A stretch of DNA of 64,000 nucleotides from Allobosea sp. CRIB-10. Its GTDB lineage: Bacteria > Pseudomonadota > Alphaproteobacteria > Rhizobiales > Beijerinckiaceae. Under the pieces are notes generated by a model. It saw only the letters and a program-made list of their open reading frames with translations. It searched no databases and was not told the DNA's origin. Position 1 is the stretch's first letter; each line of letters starts with the position of its first letter. Shown here piece after piece: positions 48,188 to 55,335 of the stretch. The stretch spans positions 186,001-250,000 of the forward strand of contig NZ_FOKP01000002.1 of NCBI RefSeq assembly GCF_900112185.1. Reading direction: 5' to 3'. The translations under genes were made by a program, and so were the position numbers.

Positions 48188-48697
48188 TCAGGCCCGTGCG
48201 AGGTTGGCCGAGAGTTCCGGCTTCACGTTCAGCGTCTGGAAGACGACGCAATAGCGCTCGGTCAGCTTGAGCAAGCTATCGAGCTTCTCCTGCGGCGCGT
48301 CGGTCTCGACGTCGAAGGACAGGCGGATCGCCTTGAAGCCCACTGCGGCGTCCTTGGCGACGCCGAGCGTGCCGCGGAAATCGAGATCGCCCTCGGCGCG
48401 GACCGTGCCCTTCTTCAATTCGATCTCGAGCGCAGTCGCGACGGCCTTCAAGGTGACGCCGGCGCAGGCGACGAGCGCTTCGAGCAACATGTCGCCGGAG
48501 CAGAGCTCGGCGCCCGAGCCGCCGGTGGCCGGGTGCAGGCCGGCGAGCGCGATCGCGCGGCCGGTCTCGACCTTGCAGGCGATGTGCTGGTCGTCGAGTT
48601 CACCCCTGGCTCTCAGCGTGATCACCGCCGCATCGGGCGCCTCACGATACTTGTCTTTGAGCGGGGCCTGCAGAGCGCGCAGCGCGGTGACGTCCAT
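48188..48697 (-). CDS. OsmC family protein
   Basis: 169 residues. Peroxidatic Cys is in LVACAGVTLKAVA and the resolving Cys in RYCVVFQTL, the OsmC/Ohr pair. It probably reduces hydroperoxides. It begins 46 bp after the pseudo-ATPase gene on the same strand, so it may share its promoter and SAM-II riboswitch. It converges with the MFS gene. Confidence 0.88.
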   Translation of the reverse strand: MDVTALRALQAPLKDKYREAPDAAVITLRARGELDDQHIACKVETGRAIALAGLHPATGGSGAELCSGDMLLEALVACAGVTLKAVATALEIELKKGTVRAEGDLDFRGTLGVAKDAAVGFKAIRLSFDVETDAPQEKLDSLLKLTERYCVVFQTLNVKPELSANLARA

Positions 48698-48743
48698 GGC
48701 GTTGATCCCTAGCGGAAACTGTTCGCGGCCCTGTCTAACCGGT

Positions 48744-49454
48744 TCAGGCCGCCGCCTCCACCTCCGGCAGGGCATGCCGGACTTCCTTGTCGAGCGCCCG
48801 ACGCAGTTCGCGGCGGAGCGCAACGAAACCGACTGAACCTTCCTCGCGCGGACGTGCCAGCAGATTGTCGAGGCTGAAGGCGACCGGCCCCGGCTGCTGC
48901 GGCAGGACGAGGATGCGGTCGGCCAGGCGCAAGGCGTCCTCGACCGAGCCGGTGGCGATGACGACAGCGGGGCGCCCCTGCGTACAGAGCTCCGGCAGGA
49001 AGGCGGCGAGCCGCTCGCGCGCCCCGGCATCCAGCGCCGCAAAGGGTTCGTCGATCAGCAGCAGGCGCGGCCTGGCCAGCAGCAGGCGGGCGATTGCGAG
49101 CCGCAGCTGCTCTTCCGGCGAGAGCGTCCCCGGCCGCTGCGTCGCCTGCGCGGCGAGGCCGACGCGGACCAGCACATTGGCGATCAGGCCCTCACGCTCG
49201 AACGGGCTCGCCTTCGGCAAGGTGAAGGCGAGGTTCTCGGTGAGATCGAGCCAGGGAAAGAAGCGCGGGCGGGCGCAGAGCAGGCCGAGCTCGGCCGTGG
49301 GTACCGCGCTCTCATCAGCCCGCAGGCCAGCGAACCCGCGCAGAGCCGCCGCCCGCACCTTGGGAGTGCCGAGCAGAGCGACGACCTCGCCGGCAGCCGG
49401 ACGCGGCATATCGCTTTCGGGAGAGCGGGAGAGCGTGTGAAGATCAGCCGACAT
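48744..49454 (-). CDS. degenerate ABC transporter ATPase-like protein
   Basis: 236 residues, similar along its length to the SsuB/TauB ATPase of the preceding gene, but most working motifs are lost. Walker A is replaced by GTPKVRAAALR (no G-K-S/T), Q-loop FQEPRLLPW by CARPRFFPW, signature LSGGQ by LSPEEQ, and switch THD by TGS. Walker B (LLLIDEPFAALD) is kept. The reading frame is clean and has its own promoter and SAM-II riboswitch, so it is likely functional as a non-hydrolysing partner or regulator. Slow decay is the alternative. Confidence 0.85.
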   Translation of the reverse strand: MSADLHTLSRSPESDMPRPAAGEVVALLGTPKVRAAALRGFAGLRADESAVPTAELGLLCARPRFFPWLDLTENLAFTLPKASPFEREGLIANVLVRVGLAAQATQRPGTLSPEEQLRLAIARLLLARPRLLLIDEPFAALDAGARERLAAFLPELCTQGRPAVVIATGSVEDALRLADRILVLPQQPGPVAFSLDNLLARPREEGSVGFVALRRELRRALDKEVRHALPEVEAAA

Positions 49455-49515
49455 AACTGGCTCCATCCATAGATAAGGCGGAAGGAGCGCCAACGGCCTC
49501 AAGGCCGCCCGTCGT

Positions 49516-49572
49516 CCCGCGCTTTAGCTGCATTTGTTTCGCGCCCGCAAGCTGAGGCTCAAATCGGCGCGT
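49516..49572 (-). promoter_or_regulatory. SAM-II riboswitch (copy B)
   Basis: On the minus strand the order is CGCGCCGATTTGAG, then CTTGCGGGCGCG, AAACAAATGCAGCTAAAG and GGG. P1 pairs CGCGCC with GGCGCG, and the GCTAAA and GAUUU segments are the SAM-II conserved nucleotides that form the pseudoknot and SAM pocket. It stands 62 bp before the pseudo-ATPase ATG and probably controls its translation. Confidence 0.85.
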
Positions 49573-49578
49573 GTCCTT

Positions 49579-49607
49579 TCATAAGGTCTAAGCGTCCGTT
49601 TTGTCAA
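49579..49607 (-). promoter_or_regulatory. promoter for the pseudo-ATPase gene
   Basis: TTGACA (49607-49602) and TTATGA (49584-49579) with a 17-bp spacer lie just before the SAM-II element. The -35 is 8 bp from the stop codon of the canonical ATPase gene. Transcription would start near 49572, at the first base of the riboswitch. Confidence 0.75.
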
Positions 49608-49614
49608 ACGCCGC

Positions 49615-50397
49615 CTACCACCACATCCCGGCGCTCTCGGCCGTCTTGTGCTGGCGCGGCTCGCTGTCGGTGAGCGAGCGGTCGAGCGTGCGCAGCGCCT
49701 CGCGCTTGGTCGCCTCGAAGGCCGGCGAAAGCCGGTCGCGCGGGCGTGTCAGCGGATTGTCGAGCTCGTCGAAGATGCGGCCTGGCCTGGGCTGCATCAC
49801 CACGATGCGGTCGGCCAGCGTCACCGCTTCCTCAACATCATGGGTGACCATCACCACGGTCGGCCGGCTCTCCTCCCAGAGGGCGAGGAGATGGCCATGC
49901 AGGCTGGCGCGGGTGGTCGCGTCGAGGGCCGAGAAAGGCTCGTCCATCAAAAGGAGCTTCGGCCGGGTGACGAGCGCCCGGGCGATGGCAACGCGCTGCT
50001 GCTGGCCGCCGGAAAGCTCGCGCGGCCAGCGCGCCTCATAGCCGGCGAGGCCGACGCGAGCGAGCGCCCCGGTGACGAGGCGGTTGCGCTCCGCCGCGGG
50101 CAGATGGCTGAGGCCGAAGCCGGCATTGTCGGCAACCGAGAGCCAAGGCAGCAAACGCGGCTCCTGGAAGATCACGCCGACATCGGCGCGCGGCTCGGTG
50201 ATGGCGGCGTCGTCGAGGAGGATGCGGCCCTCGCTCGGCCGGTCGAGCCCGGCGACGAGGCGCAGCAAAGTGGTCTTGCCGCAGCCGGAACCGCCGACCA
50301 GCGCCAGGATCTCGCCGGCGGCGACGGAGATGTCGATACCGGAGAGCGCGCGGGTGCCGTCGGCGTAGGTCTTGGAGAGGTGGTGGAAGGTCAGCAT
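49615..50397 (-). CDS. ssuB: sulfonate-type ABC transporter ATP-binding protein
   Basis: 260 residues of the SsuB/TauB group. Walker A GGSGCGKTT, Q-loop FQEPRLLPWL, signature LSGGQQQRVAIAR, Walker B LLLMDEPFSALD and switch VTHDVEEA are intact. It energises import with the permease 9 bp upstream. It ends just before a second promoter and SAM-II element. Confidence 0.92.
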   Translation of the reverse strand: MLTFHHLSKTYADGTRALSGIDISVAAGEILALVGGSGCGKTTLLRLVAGLDRPSEGRILLDDAAITEPRADVGVIFQEPRLLPWLSVADNAGFGLSHLPAAERNRLVTGALARVGLAGYEARWPRELSGGQQQRVAIARALVTRPKLLLMDEPFSALDATTRASLHGHLLALWEESRPTVVMVTHDVEEAVTLADRIVVMQPRPGRIFDELDNPLTRPRDRLSPAFEATKREALRTLDRSLTDSEPRQHKTAESAGMWW

Positions 50398-50406
50398 CGC
50401 GCGCCC

Positions 50407-51240
50407 TCAGAGCCTGTCCCGGGCGGTGTCCTGCCAGGCGAGGAAGGGGCGGGTCAGCGCGAGCAGGAGACCGTCGGCCAGCTTGCCGAGCACGGCGAAG
50501 GCGATGATCGCGGCGATGATGGTGTCAGGCCGGCCGAGCTGCTGGCCATCGACCAGGAGGTAGCCCAGGCCCTCGCTCGCTCCCATGATCTCGGCAGCGA
50601 CGACGAACATGAAGCCGAGCCCGAGCCCACCACGCAATGCCGTGAACCAGTCGGGCAGGATCGCCGGCAGCAGCACGCGCCGGACCATGGCGAGCTTGCC
50701 GAGGCGGAAGACGCGGCCGACCTCGACGATCTTGCGGTCGATCGAGAGGATCGCGGCGGCGACGCCGAGATAGACCGGGAAGAAGACGCCGACCGCGATC
50801 AGCGCCACTTTCGAGGCCTCGAAGATGCCGAACCAGAGGATGAAGAGCGGCACCCAGGCGATCGAGGGGATGGCGCGCAGCGCCTGTAGCGTCGGGTCGA
50901 GCAGGCCGCGCGCCAGTGGCAGGGCACCAGTAAGGGCGCCCAATGCCGTGCCGACGGCGGCGCCGATGCCGAAGCCGGCTGCAACGCGCCAGAGCGTCGC
51001 TGCGGCATGGGTCCAGAGCTCGCCGCTGACCGCGAGCTGCCAGAGCGTCTTGCCGACCACGCTGGGCGGCGGCATCAGCCGGCCATTGGCGAGACCGGCC
51101 CGGACGAGGATTTCCCAGATGATCGCGAGAACGACCGGCAGCAGGAAGCCGGCAAGGCGCAGGCCCGTGCGCGAAGCCGGTCGCGCTTGCGGTGCGACCG
51201 GCTTCTCGGCAACGGCTTCTGCGATCTCGATCGTGCTCAT
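50407..51240 (-). CDS. ssuC: sulfonate-type ABC transporter permease
   Basis: 277 residues with six hydrophobic segments. The EAA loop (SAGLGYLLVDGQQL region: EIMGASEGLGYLLVDGQ) and ALRAIPSIAWVPLFILWFG are typical of SsuC/TauC permeases. It lies between the binding protein and the ATPase and forms the membrane channel. Confidence 0.92.
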   Translation of the reverse strand: MSTIEIAEAVAEKPVAPQARPASRTGLRLAGFLLPVVLAIIWEILVRAGLANGRLMPPPSVVGKTLWQLAVSGELWTHAAATLWRVAAGFGIGAAVGTALGALTGALPLARGLLDPTLQALRAIPSIAWVPLFILWFGIFEASKVALIAVGVFFPVYLGVAAAILSIDRKIVEVGRVFRLGKLAMVRRVLLPAILPDWFTALRGGLGLGFMFVVAAEIMGASEGLGYLLVDGQQLGRPDTIIAAIIAFAVLGKLADGLLLALTRPFLAWQDTARDRL

Positions 51241-51260
51241 CGGCCCGCAATCATGACCGC

Positions 51261-52241
51261 TCAGTTGGTCGCGGCAAAGCGCTTGTCAATCAGCGCGTCG
51301 ACTGAGGCCCTGACGTCGGCATTGGCGGGCAGGACGCCGGCCTGCTGCAAGGCCAGGCCCGCGGCCAGGATCGTCTCGGCCTGGGCCGGGCCGATCGCGC
51401 TGTGGGTCAGCTCGGTACGGGTGAGCTGGCGCTCGATCACCGCGTCGGAGAGCTTGGTCGCCTCGACCAGCGCCTTCCTGACCTCGGCCGGGTTGGCGAG
51501 CGCGATGGCGCGCGCTTCCTCATAGGCCTTGAGCACCTTGCGGACGAGCTCGGCGTTCTTCTCGGAGAACTCCTCGCGGACATTGAGCACGCCCCAGGTG
51601 TTGTCGGCGGCCTTGCGATGGAAGAGCTTGGCGCCGGCCTCGACCTCGGCGGCGGCCATCATCGGATCGAGGCCGGCCCAGGCCTCGACATCGCCGCGCT
51701 CCAAGGCAAGACGGCCATCGGCATGCTGCAGCAGCACGAGCTTGACGTCCTTCTCGGTCAGGCCGGCCTCGGCGAGCGAGCGCACCAGGAAAATGTGCGG
51801 GTCGGTGCCGCGGGTGACGGCGACGCGCTTGCCCTTGAGGTCGGCGACCTTGGTCACCTCGCTCTTGGCGCCGGTGACGAGCGCGGTCCATTCCGGCCGC
51901 GAATAGACATAGATCGACTTGATCGGATTGCCGTTGATCCTGGCGATCAGCGCGGCGGCGCCGGCAGTCGAGCCGAAATCGAGCGAGCCGGCATTGAGGA
52001 ATTCGAGCGCCTTGTTCGAGCCGGCCGAGAGCACCCAGCGCACCTTGATGCCGTCGGCCTCGAGCGCCTTCTCGAGGATGCCGCGATCCTTGAGCAGCAG
52101 GCTGACCGGATTGTAGGTGGCGTAGTCGACCCGGATCTCCTTCGGCGCCTGCGCCTGCGCCTGCGCACTGCCGAAGGGGAGCGAGGCTGCGGCGAGACCG
52201 GCGAGCACGGCGCGGCGGGTCGAGGCTGAGATGATCGACAT
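51261..52241 (-). CDS. ssuA: sulfonate-type ABC transporter substrate-binding protein
   Basis: 326 residues with a Tat-like signal (STRRAVLAGLAAASLPFG, cleavage near AQA). The fold follows the SsuA/NMT1 pattern: IRVDYATYNPVSLLLKDRGIL, DFGSTAGAAALIA, and GKRVAVTRGTDPHIFLV. SAM-II control marks it as a sulfur-source importer. Aliphatic sulfonate is the likely but unproven ligand. Confidence 0.9.
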   Translation of the reverse strand: MSIISASTRRAVLAGLAAASLPFGSAQAQAQAPKEIRVDYATYNPVSLLLKDRGILEKALEADGIKVRWVLSAGSNKALEFLNAGSLDFGSTAGAAALIARINGNPIKSIYVYSRPEWTALVTGAKSEVTKVADLKGKRVAVTRGTDPHIFLVRSLAEAGLTEKDVKLVLLQHADGRLALERGDVEAWAGLDPMMAAAEVEAGAKLFHRKAADNTWGVLNVREEFSEKNAELVRKVLKAYEEARAIALANPAEVRKALVEATKLSDAVIERQLTRTELTHSAIGPAQAETILAAGLALQQAGVLPANADVRASVDALIDKRFAATN

Positions 52242-52247
52242 GGCGTT

Positions 52248-52274
52248 CCCCTTCGAAGACTTTGCGCGAAGGGG
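52248..52274 (-). promoter_or_regulatory. hairpin sequestering the ssuA ribosome-binding site
   Basis: CCCCTTCG and CGAAGGGG form a perfect 8-bp stem, and the right arm (read toward ssuA) holds the AAGGGG ribosome site 6 bases before the ATG. It lies 23 bp after the SAM-II riboswitch and may be part of its translational output. Confidence 0.6.
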
Positions 52275-52297
52275 TGGAGGCTGATGACCTCCGGCGC

Positions 52298-52353
52298 CCC
52301 CGCTTTAGCTGCACTTGTTTCGCGCCCGCAAGCTGCTGGCTCAAATCGGCGCG
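52298..52353 (-). promoter_or_regulatory. SAM-II riboswitch (copy A)
   Basis: On the minus strand CGCGCCGATTTGAGCC is followed by CTTGCGGGCGCG, AAACAAGTGCAGCTAAAG and GGG, the layout of SAM-II: P1 CGCGCC/GGCGCG, a pseudoknot and the GCTAAA signature. It matches copy B at nearly every position. It lies 57 bp upstream of ssuA. High SAM should turn the importer down. Confidence 0.9.
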
Positions 52354-52360
52354 TGTCCGA

Positions 52361-52389
52361 TTGATAGGTTCGATCGTTCTCTTTGTCAA
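52361..52389 (-). promoter_or_regulatory. ssuA promoter
   Basis: TTGACA (52389-52384) and TATCAA (52366-52361) are separated by 17 bp. The expected start is near 52354, at the first base of the SAM-II element. Spacing and layout match the promoter of copy B, so the whole promoter and riboswitch unit is duplicated. Confidence 0.8.
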
Positions 52390-52524
52390 ACAAGACGCAG
52401 GATTGCGTGAGATCTATAGTTTCACACCATTTCTCTGTTTAATTATGTTTCCGCGCCTGGCCTCGTTCGTGCTAGGGATCGGGATATCGCCGCGTCTGCC
52501 GAAAGCCTCGAAGAGCCTCGTTCA

Positions 52525-55335
52525 GTGCCGCCCTCCCCCGACAAGCCAGCCCCACGTCTCGCCGAGTTCATCGACAATCCCACGGCTGCGGTCGGCAAGC
52601 TGGCGCGGCAGTTCGAGCAGGGCGATCGCGACGCCCTACGCACCGCGCTCATCAATGCGCTGCGCGACAATCTCGAAGAGGGTCGCCAGTCGGCACGGGA
52701 GATCCTGGCCAAGACGCGCAACGGCCTCTCCTGCGCCAAGCGCCTCTCGACCGTGATGGACAGCGTCGTCGGAAGCCTGCACGCGGCTGCGACGCGGCAC
52801 TTCTACCCGGTGGAGAACCCCTCGGCCGGCGAGCGTATCGCCGTCGTCGCGGTCGGCGGCTATGGCCGCGGCACATTGGCGCCTGGCTCCGACGTCGATC
52901 TGCTCTTTCTCTTCCCCGACAAGCAGACCGCCTGGGGCGAGAGCGTGGTCGAGGCCATGCTCTACCCGCTCTGGGACCTGAAGCTGAAGGTCGGCCATTC
53001 CGTGCGCTCGGTCGACGACTGCATCCGCGAGGGCCGGGCGGACATGACGATCCGCACCGCACTGCTGGAAGCGCGGTTGATCTGCGGCGATGCAGCCCTG
53101 TTCGCCGATCTGCAGCGGCGCTACGGCACCGAGATCGCCGATGGCACCGCCGCAATCTTCACTGAGGCCAAGCTCGCCGAGCGCGAGAACCGCGTCGCCC
53201 GCGCCGGCTCGTCGCGTTATCTGGTCGAGCCCAACGTCAAGGACGGCAAGGGCGGCCTGCGCGACCTCAACACGCTGTTCTGGATCGCCAAATATTCCTA
53301 CCGCGTCGACGATCCGGCCGAGCTGGTCGAGGCCGGGCTGTTCGATGCGCGCGAATTCGCGATGTTCCAGCGCTCGGAGGAATTCCTCTGGCGGGTGCGC
53401 TGCTGGATGCATTTCATCACCGGGCGGGCCGAGGAGCGGCTTTCCTTCGACCTGCAGCGCCAGGTTGCAGCCGCGATCGGCTATGCCGGCCGTAGCGGCC
53501 AGGCCCCGGTCGAACGCTTCATGAAGGCCTATTTCCTCGTTGCCAAGGATGTCGGCGACCTCACGGCGATCGTCTGCGCCGCGCTGGAGGCGCGCCAACA
53601 GAAGCCGCGCGCCAGCCTGACCAGCCTGATCGGCTCCTTCACCAAGCGCCGGCGCGTGCGCGCGCTCGGCCATCCCGACTTCACCCTGCAGGGCCAGCGC
53701 CTCGCCGTCATCGACGACGAGGCCTTCAAGCGCGACCCGGTCAACCTGCTGCGGCTTTACGAGATCGCCAGCCGCGACGATCTCGCCATCCACCCCGACA
53801 CCAGCCGGCTTGTGACGCAGTCGCTCAGGCTGGTCACCCCGCAATTGCGTGTTGACCGCGAGGCCAACCGCATTTTCCTGGAGATCCTGACGGCACGGCG
53901 CTCGCCGGAAGCGGTGCTCAGGCGCATGAACGAATCCGGGCTGCTCGGCCGCTTCGTCCCGGATTTCGGCCGCATCGTCGCGATGATGCAGTTCAACATG
54001 TATCATCACTACACCGTCGACGAGCATCTGATCCGCTCGATCGGCATCCTGGCCGAGATCGACGCCGGCAAGCTCGAAGCCGAGCACCCCCTGGCGAATT
54101 CGATCTTCGCGACGATCACCAACCGGCGCGCGCTCTATGTCGCGCTGTTCCTGCACGACATCGCCAAAGGCCGGCCGGAGGACCATTCGGTCGCCGGCGC
54201 CCGCATCGCCCGCAAGCTCTGCCCGCGGCTCGGCCTGACCGAGGCACAGACCGAGACGGTGGTCTGGCTGATCGAGAACCATCTGGTGATGTCGACCATC
54301 GCCCAGAGCCGCGATCTCGGCGACCCCAAGACGATCGAGAGCTTCGCGGCGATCGTGCAGACGCTGGAGCGGCTGAAGCTGCTGCTGGTGCTGACCGTCG
54401 CCGACATCAAGGCAGTCGGCCCCGGCGTCTGGAACGGCTGGAAGGGGCAATTGCTGCGCACGCTCTATTACGAGACCGAGGTCGTGCTCGCCGGTGGCCA
54501 TTCCGGGATCGAGCGCAAGGCCAGGGTCGAGCGCAAGCAGCAGGCGCTGGAGACACGGCTCGCAGACTGGACCGAGGGTGAGCGCGCCGCCTATCTCGCC
54601 CGGCACTATCCCGCCTATTGGCTCAAGGTCGAACCCGAACGGCAGGAGCAGCATGCCCGCTTCCTGCGCGAGGCGGAGATCGCAGGCCGCACCACCGCCA
54701 CGAAGGTCGAGACCGACCAGTTCCGCGGCGTGACCGAGCTGACCGTGCTGGCACCCGACCATCCGCGCCTGCTCGCCATCGTCACCGGCGCCTGCGCCGC
54801 GGCCGGCGGCAACATCGTCGACGCGCAGATCTTCACCACCACCGACGGGCTGGTGCTCGACACGATCTTCGTCTCGCGCGCCTTCGAGCGCGACGACGAC
54901 GAGTTGCGCCGGGCCGAGCGGATCGCGGCGGCGATCGAGCGCGCGCTCAAGGGCGAGATCAGGATCGCCGACCTCGTCGCCCAGCGCCGCGCCCCGCCGC
55001 CGCGCGGCGGGACATTCCAGGTCGCACCCGAGGTCATCATCGACAACGTCCTGTCGTCGCGGCACACGGTGCTGGAGGTCTCGGGCCTCGACCGGCCCGG
55101 CCTGCTCTACGATCTCACCACCGCCATCGGGAAGCTGAACCTCAACATCGCCTCGGCGCATATCGCGACCTTCGGCGAGAAGGCGGTCGACGTCTTCTAC
55201 GTCACCGATCTCACCGGGGCGAAGATCACCTCGACCGGCCGGCAGCTGGTGATCCGCCAGGCGCTGCTCGCCGTGTTCAACCTGGAACTCGACAAGCCGG
55301 CTTCCAGCAAGGCCAAGGCCGTGGCCCGCGCTTGA
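52525..55335 (+). CDS. glnD: bifunctional [protein-PII] uridylyltransferase GlnD
   Basis: 936 residues. The nucleotidyltransferase site GGYGRGTLAPGSDVDLLFL is at about residues 111-130, the HD domain (HDIAKGRPEDHS) near 545, and two ACT domains start near 738 (ELTVLAPDHPRLL) and 848 (LEVSGLDRPGLLYD). It uridylylates and deuridylylates PII proteins in response to glutamine. The start is a GTG at 52525. Confidence 0.97.
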   Translation: MPPSPDKPAPRLAEFIDNPTAAVGKLARQFEQGDRDALRTALINALRDNLEEGRQSAREILAKTRNGLSCAKRLSTVMDSVVGSLHAAATRHFYPVENPSAGERIAVVAVGGYGRGTLAPGSDVDLLFLFPDKQTAWGESVVEAMLYPLWDLKLKVGHSVRSVDDCIREGRADMTIRTALLEARLICGDAALFADLQRRYGTEIADGTAAIFTEAKLAERENRVARAGSSRYLVEPNVKDGKGGLRDLNTLFWIAKYSYRVDDPAELVEAGLFDAREFAMFQRSEEFLWRVRCWMHFITGRAEERLSFDLQRQVAAAIGYAGRSGQAPVERFMKAYFLVAKDVGDLTAIVCAALEARQQKPRASLTSLIGSFTKRRRVRALGHPDFTLQGQRLAVIDDEAFKRDPVNLLRLYEIASRDDLAIHPDTSRLVTQSLRLVTPQLRVDREANRIFLEILTARRSPEAVLRRMNESGLLGRFVPDFGRIVAMMQFNMYHHYTVDEHLIRSIGILAEIDAGKLEAEHPLANSIFATITNRRALYVALFLHDIAKGRPEDHSVAGARIARKLCPRLGLTEAQTETVVWLIENHLVMSTIAQSRDLGDPKTIESFAAIVQTLERLKLLLVLTVADIKAVGPGVWNGWKGQLLRTLYYETEVVLAGGHSGIERKARVERKQQALETRLADWTEGERAAYLARHYPAYWLKVEPERQEQHARFLREAEIAGRTTATKVETDQFRGVTELTVLAPDHPRLLAIVTGACAAAGGNIVDAQIFTTTDGLVLDTIFVSRAFERDDDELRRAERIAAAIERALKGEIRIADLVAQRRAPPPRGGTFQVAPEVIIDNVLSSRHTVLEVSGLDRPGLLYDLTTAIGKLNLNIASAHIATFGEKAVDVFYVTDLTGAKITSTGRQLVIRQALLAVFNLELDKPASSKAKAVARA

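Follow-up and report, generated by a model that had tools for sequence, protein, structure and literature searches.

Probable SAM-II riboswitches, two in one locus, precede sulfonate-type import genes and osmC in Allobosea sp. CRIB-10 and Bosea relatives

INTRODUCTION

What are the two look-alike leaders in the ssuACB-osmC sulfur-import locus of Allobosea sp. CRIB-10, and which genes would each of them govern? The locus lies within 64,000 nucleotides (nt) of the forward strand of contig NZ_FOKP01000002.1 (positions 186,001 to 250,000), a stretch that we call the window and by which all positions are numbered. A first-pass annotation, made from the letters alone, had described two minus-strand elements here with the pattern of SAM-II, a riboswitch class for S-adenosylmethionine (SAM), each behind a promoter of the same design. 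Leyn 2014 gives metY, metA, metX, metW, metC and hom as SAM-II targets, and the terms "ssu" and "sulfonate" are absent from the main text of that paper (PMC4239095). Our search of open papers, as far as their accessible parts go, returned no report of SAM-II on ssu genes in alphaproteobacteria; as far as searched, these target genes are new.

RESULTS

Two SAM-II aptamers in one locus

Copies A and B lie on the minus strand where the first-pass annotation had placed them (Table 1) and follow a near-identical plan: TTGACA, a 17-nt spacer and a -10 hexamer, then after 7 nt the P1 strand CGCGCC, GAUUUGAGCC..CAGCUUGC, GGGCGCG, AAACAA(G/A)UGCA, GCUAAA and GC. The window holds two copies of the 21-mer GGACACGCGCCGATTTGAGCC and no more (expected 0.01 with up to three mismatches). 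Both elements match Rfam RF00521 (SAM_alpha) over its full length in a 3.2-kb scan, copy A at 52284-52362 with 32.4 bits (E 8.6e-5) and copy B at 49505-49580 with 28.8 bits (E 8.6e-4). Across the whole genome, three SAM_alpha matches have E below 0.001, namely copies A and B and a third match on contig C29. The accessible part of PMC3764141 gives 13 nucleotides as completely conserved in SAM-II, U10-U12, U20-U21-G22-C23 and G42-C43-U44-A45-A46-A47, and all 13 are present in A and in B.

We also built a model, R1, from 24 aptamers with the window's two included. R1 scores copy A at 82.9 bits and copy B at 77.8 bits, and no other window match falls under E 0.1. Among 24 related aptamers, 97.2% of the P1 and P2 cells hold a standard pair, against 21 to 55% in slid controls. 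Three P1 pairs change on both sides; four of the six P2 pairs are invariant and hence uninformative on covariation. A P1 hairpin and an H-type P2 pseudoknot are thus present. SAM-V (RF01826) gave no row up to E 10 in 49400-52600, apart from one weaker overlapping match to a family of the same clan, which the scan dropped without naming it.

The Rfam limit itself counts against this identification. Both scores fall below the RF00521 gathering score of 36, and a scan at that threshold lists neither copy, the very outcome that the first-pass annotation had set in advance as a refutation. The 36 bits are a curated score limit and no structural feature; we set the miss aside as a refutation, since the E-value scan, the R1 scores and the genus survey below agree. 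Because both scores are below the cut-off, the identity of the aptamers rests on genus-wide conservation. Taking the explanation as a whole, we consider it probable that both elements are SAM-II riboswitches in sulfur-gene leaders, with SAM as the presumed ligand. They share with SAM-II the P1 hairpin, the H-type pseudoknot, the listed pocket nucleotides, an A-rich L3 and a place in an alphaproteobacterial 5′ leader. They differ in their target, an ssuACB-osmC unit, in a separate Shine-Dalgarno (SD) hairpin, in starts that follow GCUAAA by 62 nt (A) and 68 nt (B), and in their sub-cut-off scores.

Table 1. Positions of the predicted features around copies A and B
Feature	Positions	Strand	Parts	Basis
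Promoter A	52361..52389	-	TTGACA 52389-52384, 17 nt, TATCAA 52366-52361	Sequence, conservation
SAM-II aptamer A	52292..52355	-	P1 52353-52348 with 52326-52321; L1 GAUUU 52347-52343; P2 strand UUGC 52331-52328; GCUAAA 52309-52304; P2 3′ strand GCGGGGG 52303-52297	RF00521, R1, pair counts
Spacer hairpin, leader A	52276..52292	-	GGAGGU/GCCUCC	Folds; relatives have similar hairpins with other stem letters
Anti-SD/SD hairpin, leader A	52248..52274	-	Anti-SD CCCCUUCG 52274-52267; SD CGAAGGGG 52255-52248; ssuA start 52241	Folds
ssuA-like, substrate-binding protein	51261..52241	-		TIGR01728, 220.2 bits (above cut-off 163.5)
ssuC-like, permease	50407..51240	-		PF00528; best NCBIfam SsuC, 186.7 bits (below cut-off 347)
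ssuB-like, ATPase	49615..50397	-	Walker A intact	PF00005; SsuB, 217.3 bits (below cut-off 395)
Promoter B	49579..49607	-	TTGACA 49607-49602, 17 nt, TTATGA 49584-49579	Sequence, conservation
SAM-II aptamer B	49511..49573	-	P1 49571-49566 with 49545-49540; UUGC 49550-49547; GCUAAA 49528-49523; P2 3′ strand GCGCGGGA 49522-49515	RF00521, R1
Leader B	49460..49509	-	Spacer hairpin 49509-49492; anti-SD GCGCUCCUUCCGCC 49490-49477; SD GGAUGGAGC 49468-49460	Folds
Degenerate SsuB paralogue, ABC-ATPase-like, first gene after copy B	48744..49454	-		Family profiles, motif reading
osmC-like, last in unit	48188..48703	-	ATG at 48703 predicted	PF02566, E 5e-18

The SAM-II-ssuACB-osmC arrangement is conserved in Bosea

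We surveyed 67 Bosea genomes for SAM_alpha matches to E 0.1, then fetched the loci and laid them out. Every genome has at least one match at this limit, which also triggers in 3 of 14 control genomes. The ssu/osmC-type aptamer is borne by 64 of the 67, and the remaining three returned only another SAM-II class, described below. The commonest plan is SAM-II-ssuA-ssuC-ssuB-osmC: a single element precedes ssuA-ssuC-ssuB in 37 genomes, with osmC seen in 36 and cut off by a contig end in one, and two further genomes (G133, G139) have SAM-II before ssuA at contig ends. The layout of the window, with a second promoter-aptamer unit and a degenerate SsuB paralogue between ssuB and osmC, is found in 18. 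Seven genomes have SAM-II only before the degenerate paralogue, with osmC seen in six. All told, osmC is present in 60 of the 62 ssu-type Bosea loci that were laid out. In five genomes the best match exceeds the RF00521 cut-off, and all five are of the ssu/osmC type. The first-pass annotation had called a duplicated unit in such a locus unusual; the duplication is real and its target genes are new as far as searched, but with 18 genomes sharing it the arrangement is not unique.

Outside Bosea, a family sample of 99 genomes holds ssuA-associated elements in four (G025, G028, G070, G032). Among the 30 loci read from an order sample, one in another family (G450) has such an element with osmC after it, the OsmC being 79% identical. 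In that order survey 285 of 397 genomes match, and the best 30 loci were read. Our aptamer pattern failed to pick up 26 of the 30 best family loci, and most of these again in the order sample, so the metX/metY-type class is under-sampled.

Promoters and genes of the locus

The matched promoter units, TTGACA-N17-TATCAA and TTGACA-N17-TTATGA, are as first described. A TTTGAC block stands 42 to 43 nt ahead of the GATTT core in all 58 A-type loci and 43 to 45 nt ahead in all 25 B-type loci. Because the -10 hexamers are poor, a consensus promoter scan lists neither promoter, and the calls rest on conservation. Promoter B begins 7 nt past the ssuB stop codon. The conserved -35 block is extended (window 52371-52391 and 49592-49611), reading TGTTTGACAaAcaGAACg in A and cGTTTGACAaAacGgACg in B, where capitals mark at least 90%; the metN-type promoter of the same genome carries TTGACATGCAGAACG. 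This block is possibly the site of a regulator. A palindrome over the -35 region, CTGTTTGACAAACAG, has an exact copy in just 6 of the 58 A leaders, and we do not claim it as an operator. In Sinorhizobium meliloti, control at the metA and metZ promoters is reported as unexplained in the accessible part of PMC9373788.

Gene order and the TIGR01728, PF00528 and PF00005 matches bear out the placing of copy A on ssuA-ssuC-ssuB. SsuC and SsuB fall short of their equivalog cut-offs, so those names hold at the subfamily level only. The importer appears, by its profile matches, to be of the SsuABC type with a sulfonate as predicted substrate. The gene after copy B has lost Walker A, the LSGGQ signature and the H-loop histidine, and keeps DEPFAALD. 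The description of copy B as serving a pseudo-ATPase gene from its own promoter is therefore right as far as it goes, but it left out osmC, the gene that would be kept under SAM control. This osmC neighbour is a peroxide-defence-type gene.

A terminator scan found no site from ssuB to copy B, nor from either aptamer to its start codon; its single weak minus-strand match lies inside ssuC. Read-through from promoter A into copy B is thus expected, and copy B probably also works inside the resulting long mRNA.

How SAM could reach the ribosome-binding site

In neither leader is the SD held directly in P2a, and neither shows a SAM-dependent terminator. Instead, the SD lies 41 nt (A) or 46 nt (B) past the P2 3′ strand, in a hairpin of its own, and start codons follow GCUAAA by 49 to 82 nt in the 58 A leaders and by 61 to 72 nt in the 25 B leaders. 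We propose that when SAM is scarce, the P2 3′ strand (GCGGGGG in A, GCGCGGGA in B) would be free to pair with the anti-SD arm, which starts 22 to 24 nt downstream, and that this pairing would leave the ribosome site open. When SAM is bound, the strand would be locked in the P2 pseudoknot, the anti-SD arm would fold onto the SD, and translation would stop. We infer both this direction and the coupling.

The A leaders carry an SD-covering hairpin. Their fold z has a median of -2.49 and is below -1 in 45 of 50 distinct leaders, and in 26 of the 50 the SD helix is better than 95% or more of its shuffles, with varied stem letters. Differing stems include CCCCUUCG/CGAAGGGG, GAUCCCUC/GAGGGAUC, GGUCCCUU/AAGGGACC and UCCCAUG/CAUGGGA. 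For B leaders the median z is -1.79, with 18 of 22 below -1. When the SD is forced open and the P2 3′ strand is left free, the best fold in nine printed leaders pairs that strand with the anti-SD arm around the spacer hairpin, GCGnGGGG (the form in most A leaders) facing UCCCnCGC. By pattern, a partner CCC-N(1,2)-[C/G]GC for the P2 strand stands downstream in 46 of 58 A leaders (39 of 50 distinct). The G and C of the anti-SD CGC are invariant in 31 aligned A leaders, in most of which they fall outside the SD helix. This MAFFT alignment covers 31 of the 50 distinct A leaders and omits L100, L106-L110, L132 and L134, which are divergent; it shifts the anti-SD by a base, and per-sequence helices were used instead.

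Across 56 distinct A leaders, the median cost of opening the SD is 3.7 kcal/mol when the P2 strand is free and 11.3 kcal/mol when it is blocked; for 25 B leaders the medians are 2.9 and 8.0 kcal/mol. Smaller leader sets gave 3.4 and 11.3 (A) and 2.9 and 7.9 (B). A free P2 strand makes opening cheaper by at least 2 kcal/mol in 48 of 56 A and 22 of 25 B leaders. Earlier folds had omitted 7 of 58 A leaders (L068, L071, L079, L096, L112, L114, L125) and 3 of 25 B leaders (L082, L083, L088), most of which had no ATG in the frame tested; the opening and accessibility calculations were repeated on all 58 and 25.

Several results weigh against this switch. The window's own leaders show no folding advantage over shuffles (z -0.13 for A, -0.08 for B), and in B leaders the SD helix beats shuffles in none of 22. 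Shuffled P2 strands also cut the opening cost, to medians of 6.6 (A) and 4.4 (B) kcal/mol, and match the real strand in a median of 24% (A) and 38% (B) of trials; just 17 of 56 A and 5 of 25 B leaders have at most 10% of shuffles as cheap. In the partition function, median SD accessibility of A leaders is 0.17 in both states, rising by more than 0.05 in 7 of 51 and falling in one; on shorter stretches it is 0.18 versus 0.17, up in 17 of 56. B leaders give 0.17 versus 0.17 (up in 4 of 22), and on shorter stretches 0.36 versus 0.17 (up in 15 of 25, down in one), so the B result depends on where the RNA is cut. Simple thermodynamic switching thus meets mixed evidence, with no general change in A leaders and a change in B leaders on shorter stretches only. 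Competition between the P2 strand and the SD for the anti-SD arm is possibly at work, perhaps during transcription, and the models make a coupling of aptamer to SD likely but unproven.

The chief rival takes its example from S. meliloti metA. There, according to the accessible part of PMC9373788, an SD inside the riboswitch is required and translation starts 74 nt downstream. On this account the G-rich P2 stretch would be a distant ribosome-landing site that SAM hides, and the downstream SD hairpin would be constitutive. The distances from GCUAAA to the start codons given above fit such an arrangement, as does ensemble folding, which hides the local SD in both states of A leaders. The P2 strand GCGnGGGG would, however, make a poor SD, and a landing site would have no need for the downstream CCC-N(1,2)-[C/G]GC partner or for the P2/anti-SD pairing of the nine leaders. 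We judge the landing site unlikely, though it is the rival to be taken most seriously, and prefer competition for the anti-SD arm.

Copy B and the control of osmC

With SAM-II-ssuACB-osmC as the common layout and the copy-B unit standing between ssuB and osmC, it is osmC that would remain under SAM control. The plainest reading of the loci is that copy B mainly retains osmC under SAM control, which would be exerted through A in the simple layout and through B in the split one. A single SAM-II-ssuACB-osmC operon was likely the starting layout; a second SAM-II unit with an ssuB-related gene would then have ended up between ssuB and osmC and have taken over osmC. Copy A would now govern ssuA-ssuC-ssuB, and copy B, from its own promoter, the degenerate SsuB paralogue and osmC.

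A tree separates the B genes from the SsuB rows by a single branch (all 21 of the B rows used, 98% of bootstrap trees, with a long-branch warning). The tree used 21 of 25 B genes, leaving out L088, L095, L121 and L127 as frame-shifted, cut or run-on, and 21 hand-picked of 62 SsuB rows. L083 retains GRDGSGKS, and the other B genes that were read lack Walker A. Among relatives of the degenerate ATPase (best 80 of 582 loci), one Bosea locus reaches 44% and the others 28 to 43%. In intact copies, the median ratio of nonsynonymous to synonymous substitution rates (dN/dS) is 0.25 for the B gene, 0.20 for SsuB, 0.20 for SsuC, 0.19 for SsuA and 0.10 for OsmC. The B value covers 18 of 25 genes, without L088, L095, L121, L127 and the divergent L082, L083 and L099, which biases the ratio low; 139 of 153 pairs were within the dS range used. 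The B gene thus seems mostly under selection, although enzymatically dead by its motifs.

Seven of the 18 genomes with both copies (L077, L087, L092, L104, L119, L126, L127) have a GNAT-like gene between ssuB and copy B by their translations, with a VOC-like gene as well in L077 and L087; L074 has other small genes between ssuB and osmC. We had considered that the extra DNA in the seven might hold remnants of a second ssuA or ssuC. Since the translations give GNAT-like and VOC-like proteins instead, tandem duplication as the origin of copy B is unproven.

Copy B might also be a decaying relic of duplication with no regulatory function, as its first gene is a degenerate SsuB. This gene has a frameshift in L121 and apparently one in L088 too, in which the SD is followed by an out-of-frame ATG. 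The copy-B aptamer and promoter block are nevertheless kept in 25 genomes, even ahead of osmC in L121 with its broken first gene, and together with the low dN/dS of the B gene and of osmC this makes a relic very improbable. Upstream of copy B, L121 has an A-like promoter half and a B-like aptamer half, a pattern that recombination between the units with loss of ssuACB would leave. Still less credible are SAM-II descendants with a changed ligand, an idea that the sub-cut-off scores and the choice of importer genes over methionine synthesis would suit but that the unchanged pocket and the five above-cut-off Bosea matches, all of the ssu/osmC type, speak against.

A second SAM-II class with a cysteine-ended frame

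The third match of the genome belongs to a second SAM-II class that is also found in Bosea relatives, with P1 CCGCG and, in most, the L3 UCACCAAAC. Its loci are contig C29 of this genome (G000) near 115201-115261 (L002:1508-1690), L091, L128-L131 and L258-L277. The class precedes one or two small genes and a metN-like ATP-binding cassette (ABC) gene, within 1.6 kb in 25 of 26 loci; one of these metN-like proteins has ABC and NIL domains.

We read 26 Bosea loci, from 26 of the 67 genomes. In all 26, an ATG at most 75 nt from the aptamer opens a frame of 20 to 26 codons with a cysteine in the last eight; the frame was picked for a cysteine near its end, and the test is therefore the shuffle and not this count. 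CC or C-x-C stands in these last eight codons in 24 of 26, where the same frames shuffled give 0.4, and 13 of 26 end in CCCRR. The cysteine codons alternate between TGC and TGT while the residue stays constant, which speaks for translation of a leader peptide. In L091, L128, L266 and L272 the frame starts 12 nt after GCUAAA and the P2 strand contains a GGAG. This is the classical SAM-II position, so translation of the peptide should be under SAM control. By hand count, with close relatives included, a cysteine-containing short frame lies within 90 nt in 16 of 21 second-class loci outside Bosea; among other SAM-II types it was found in 1 of 16 (L006, 44 codons with two scattered cysteines).

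Poly-cysteine leader peptides are known from mycobacteria. The second class suggests, by its sequence, a joint sensor of SAM and cysteine in one leader. In G029 (L257, G029:C2:134000-143500), a peptide MTSHYCCP stands between SAM-II and an operon of ssuA, a luciferase-like monooxygenase gene (ssuD-like), ssuC, ssuB and a flavin reductase gene. From its gene content, this looks like a second, independent joining of SAM-II to sulfonate genes.

DISCUSSION

Leaders of this kind have partial precedents. The S. meliloti metA and metZ genes likewise have a SAM-II leader with a far-downstream start; unlike the Bosea leaders, which have an SD beside the start and in which a scan found no terminator, they reportedly require a riboswitch-internal SD and involve terminators (Scheuer 2022; accessible part of PMC9373788). 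The Pelagibacter bhmT-osmC-ordL locus also places osmC in a SAM-riboswitch sulfur locus of an alphaproteobacterium, but there SAM-V and SAM-II stand before bhmT and there is no ssu importer. In the accessible part of that report (PMC5069961), osmC, whose locus is marked as downstream of SAM-V, responds to sulfur limitation in exponential cells with a 50-fold rise of its mRNA and a 4.5-fold rise of its protein, and in stationary phase is lower in sulfur-limited than in control cells. This response is a precedent for osmC under SAM control. SAM riboswitches of Bacillota, listed as tandem ones, lie upstream of SsuABC-type transporter genes annotated ssuA/B/C, which the authors read as a hydroxymethylpyrimidine transporter (accessible part of PMC12452182).

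Taken together, SAM-II could regulate sulfur import in general in Bosea and in some of its relatives, with two designs, a picture that we hold tentatively and at slightly less than even confidence. One would be the ssuACB-osmC design with its distant anti-SD/SD switch, duplicated so that osmC, next to an SsuB paralogue with a dead ATPase, keeps a promoter and a SAM sensor of its own. The other would serve metN-type importers in Bosea, and the ssuA-ssuD-ssuC-ssuB-flavin reductase operon in G029, through a cysteine-ended leader peptide that reads both SAM and charged cysteine tRNA.

If the identification is right, the SAM-II regulon would extend beyond methionine synthesis to sulfonate-type import and OsmC, and there would be an explanation of why standard annotation at the Rfam threshold overlooks these switches. 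The conserved tandem promoter-aptamer unit opens the question of why a second riboswitch is kept in a locus already headed by one. Should the cysteine-rich leader behind the second class function as its sequence suggests, it would couple a metabolite riboswitch to a leader peptide that senses an amino acid.

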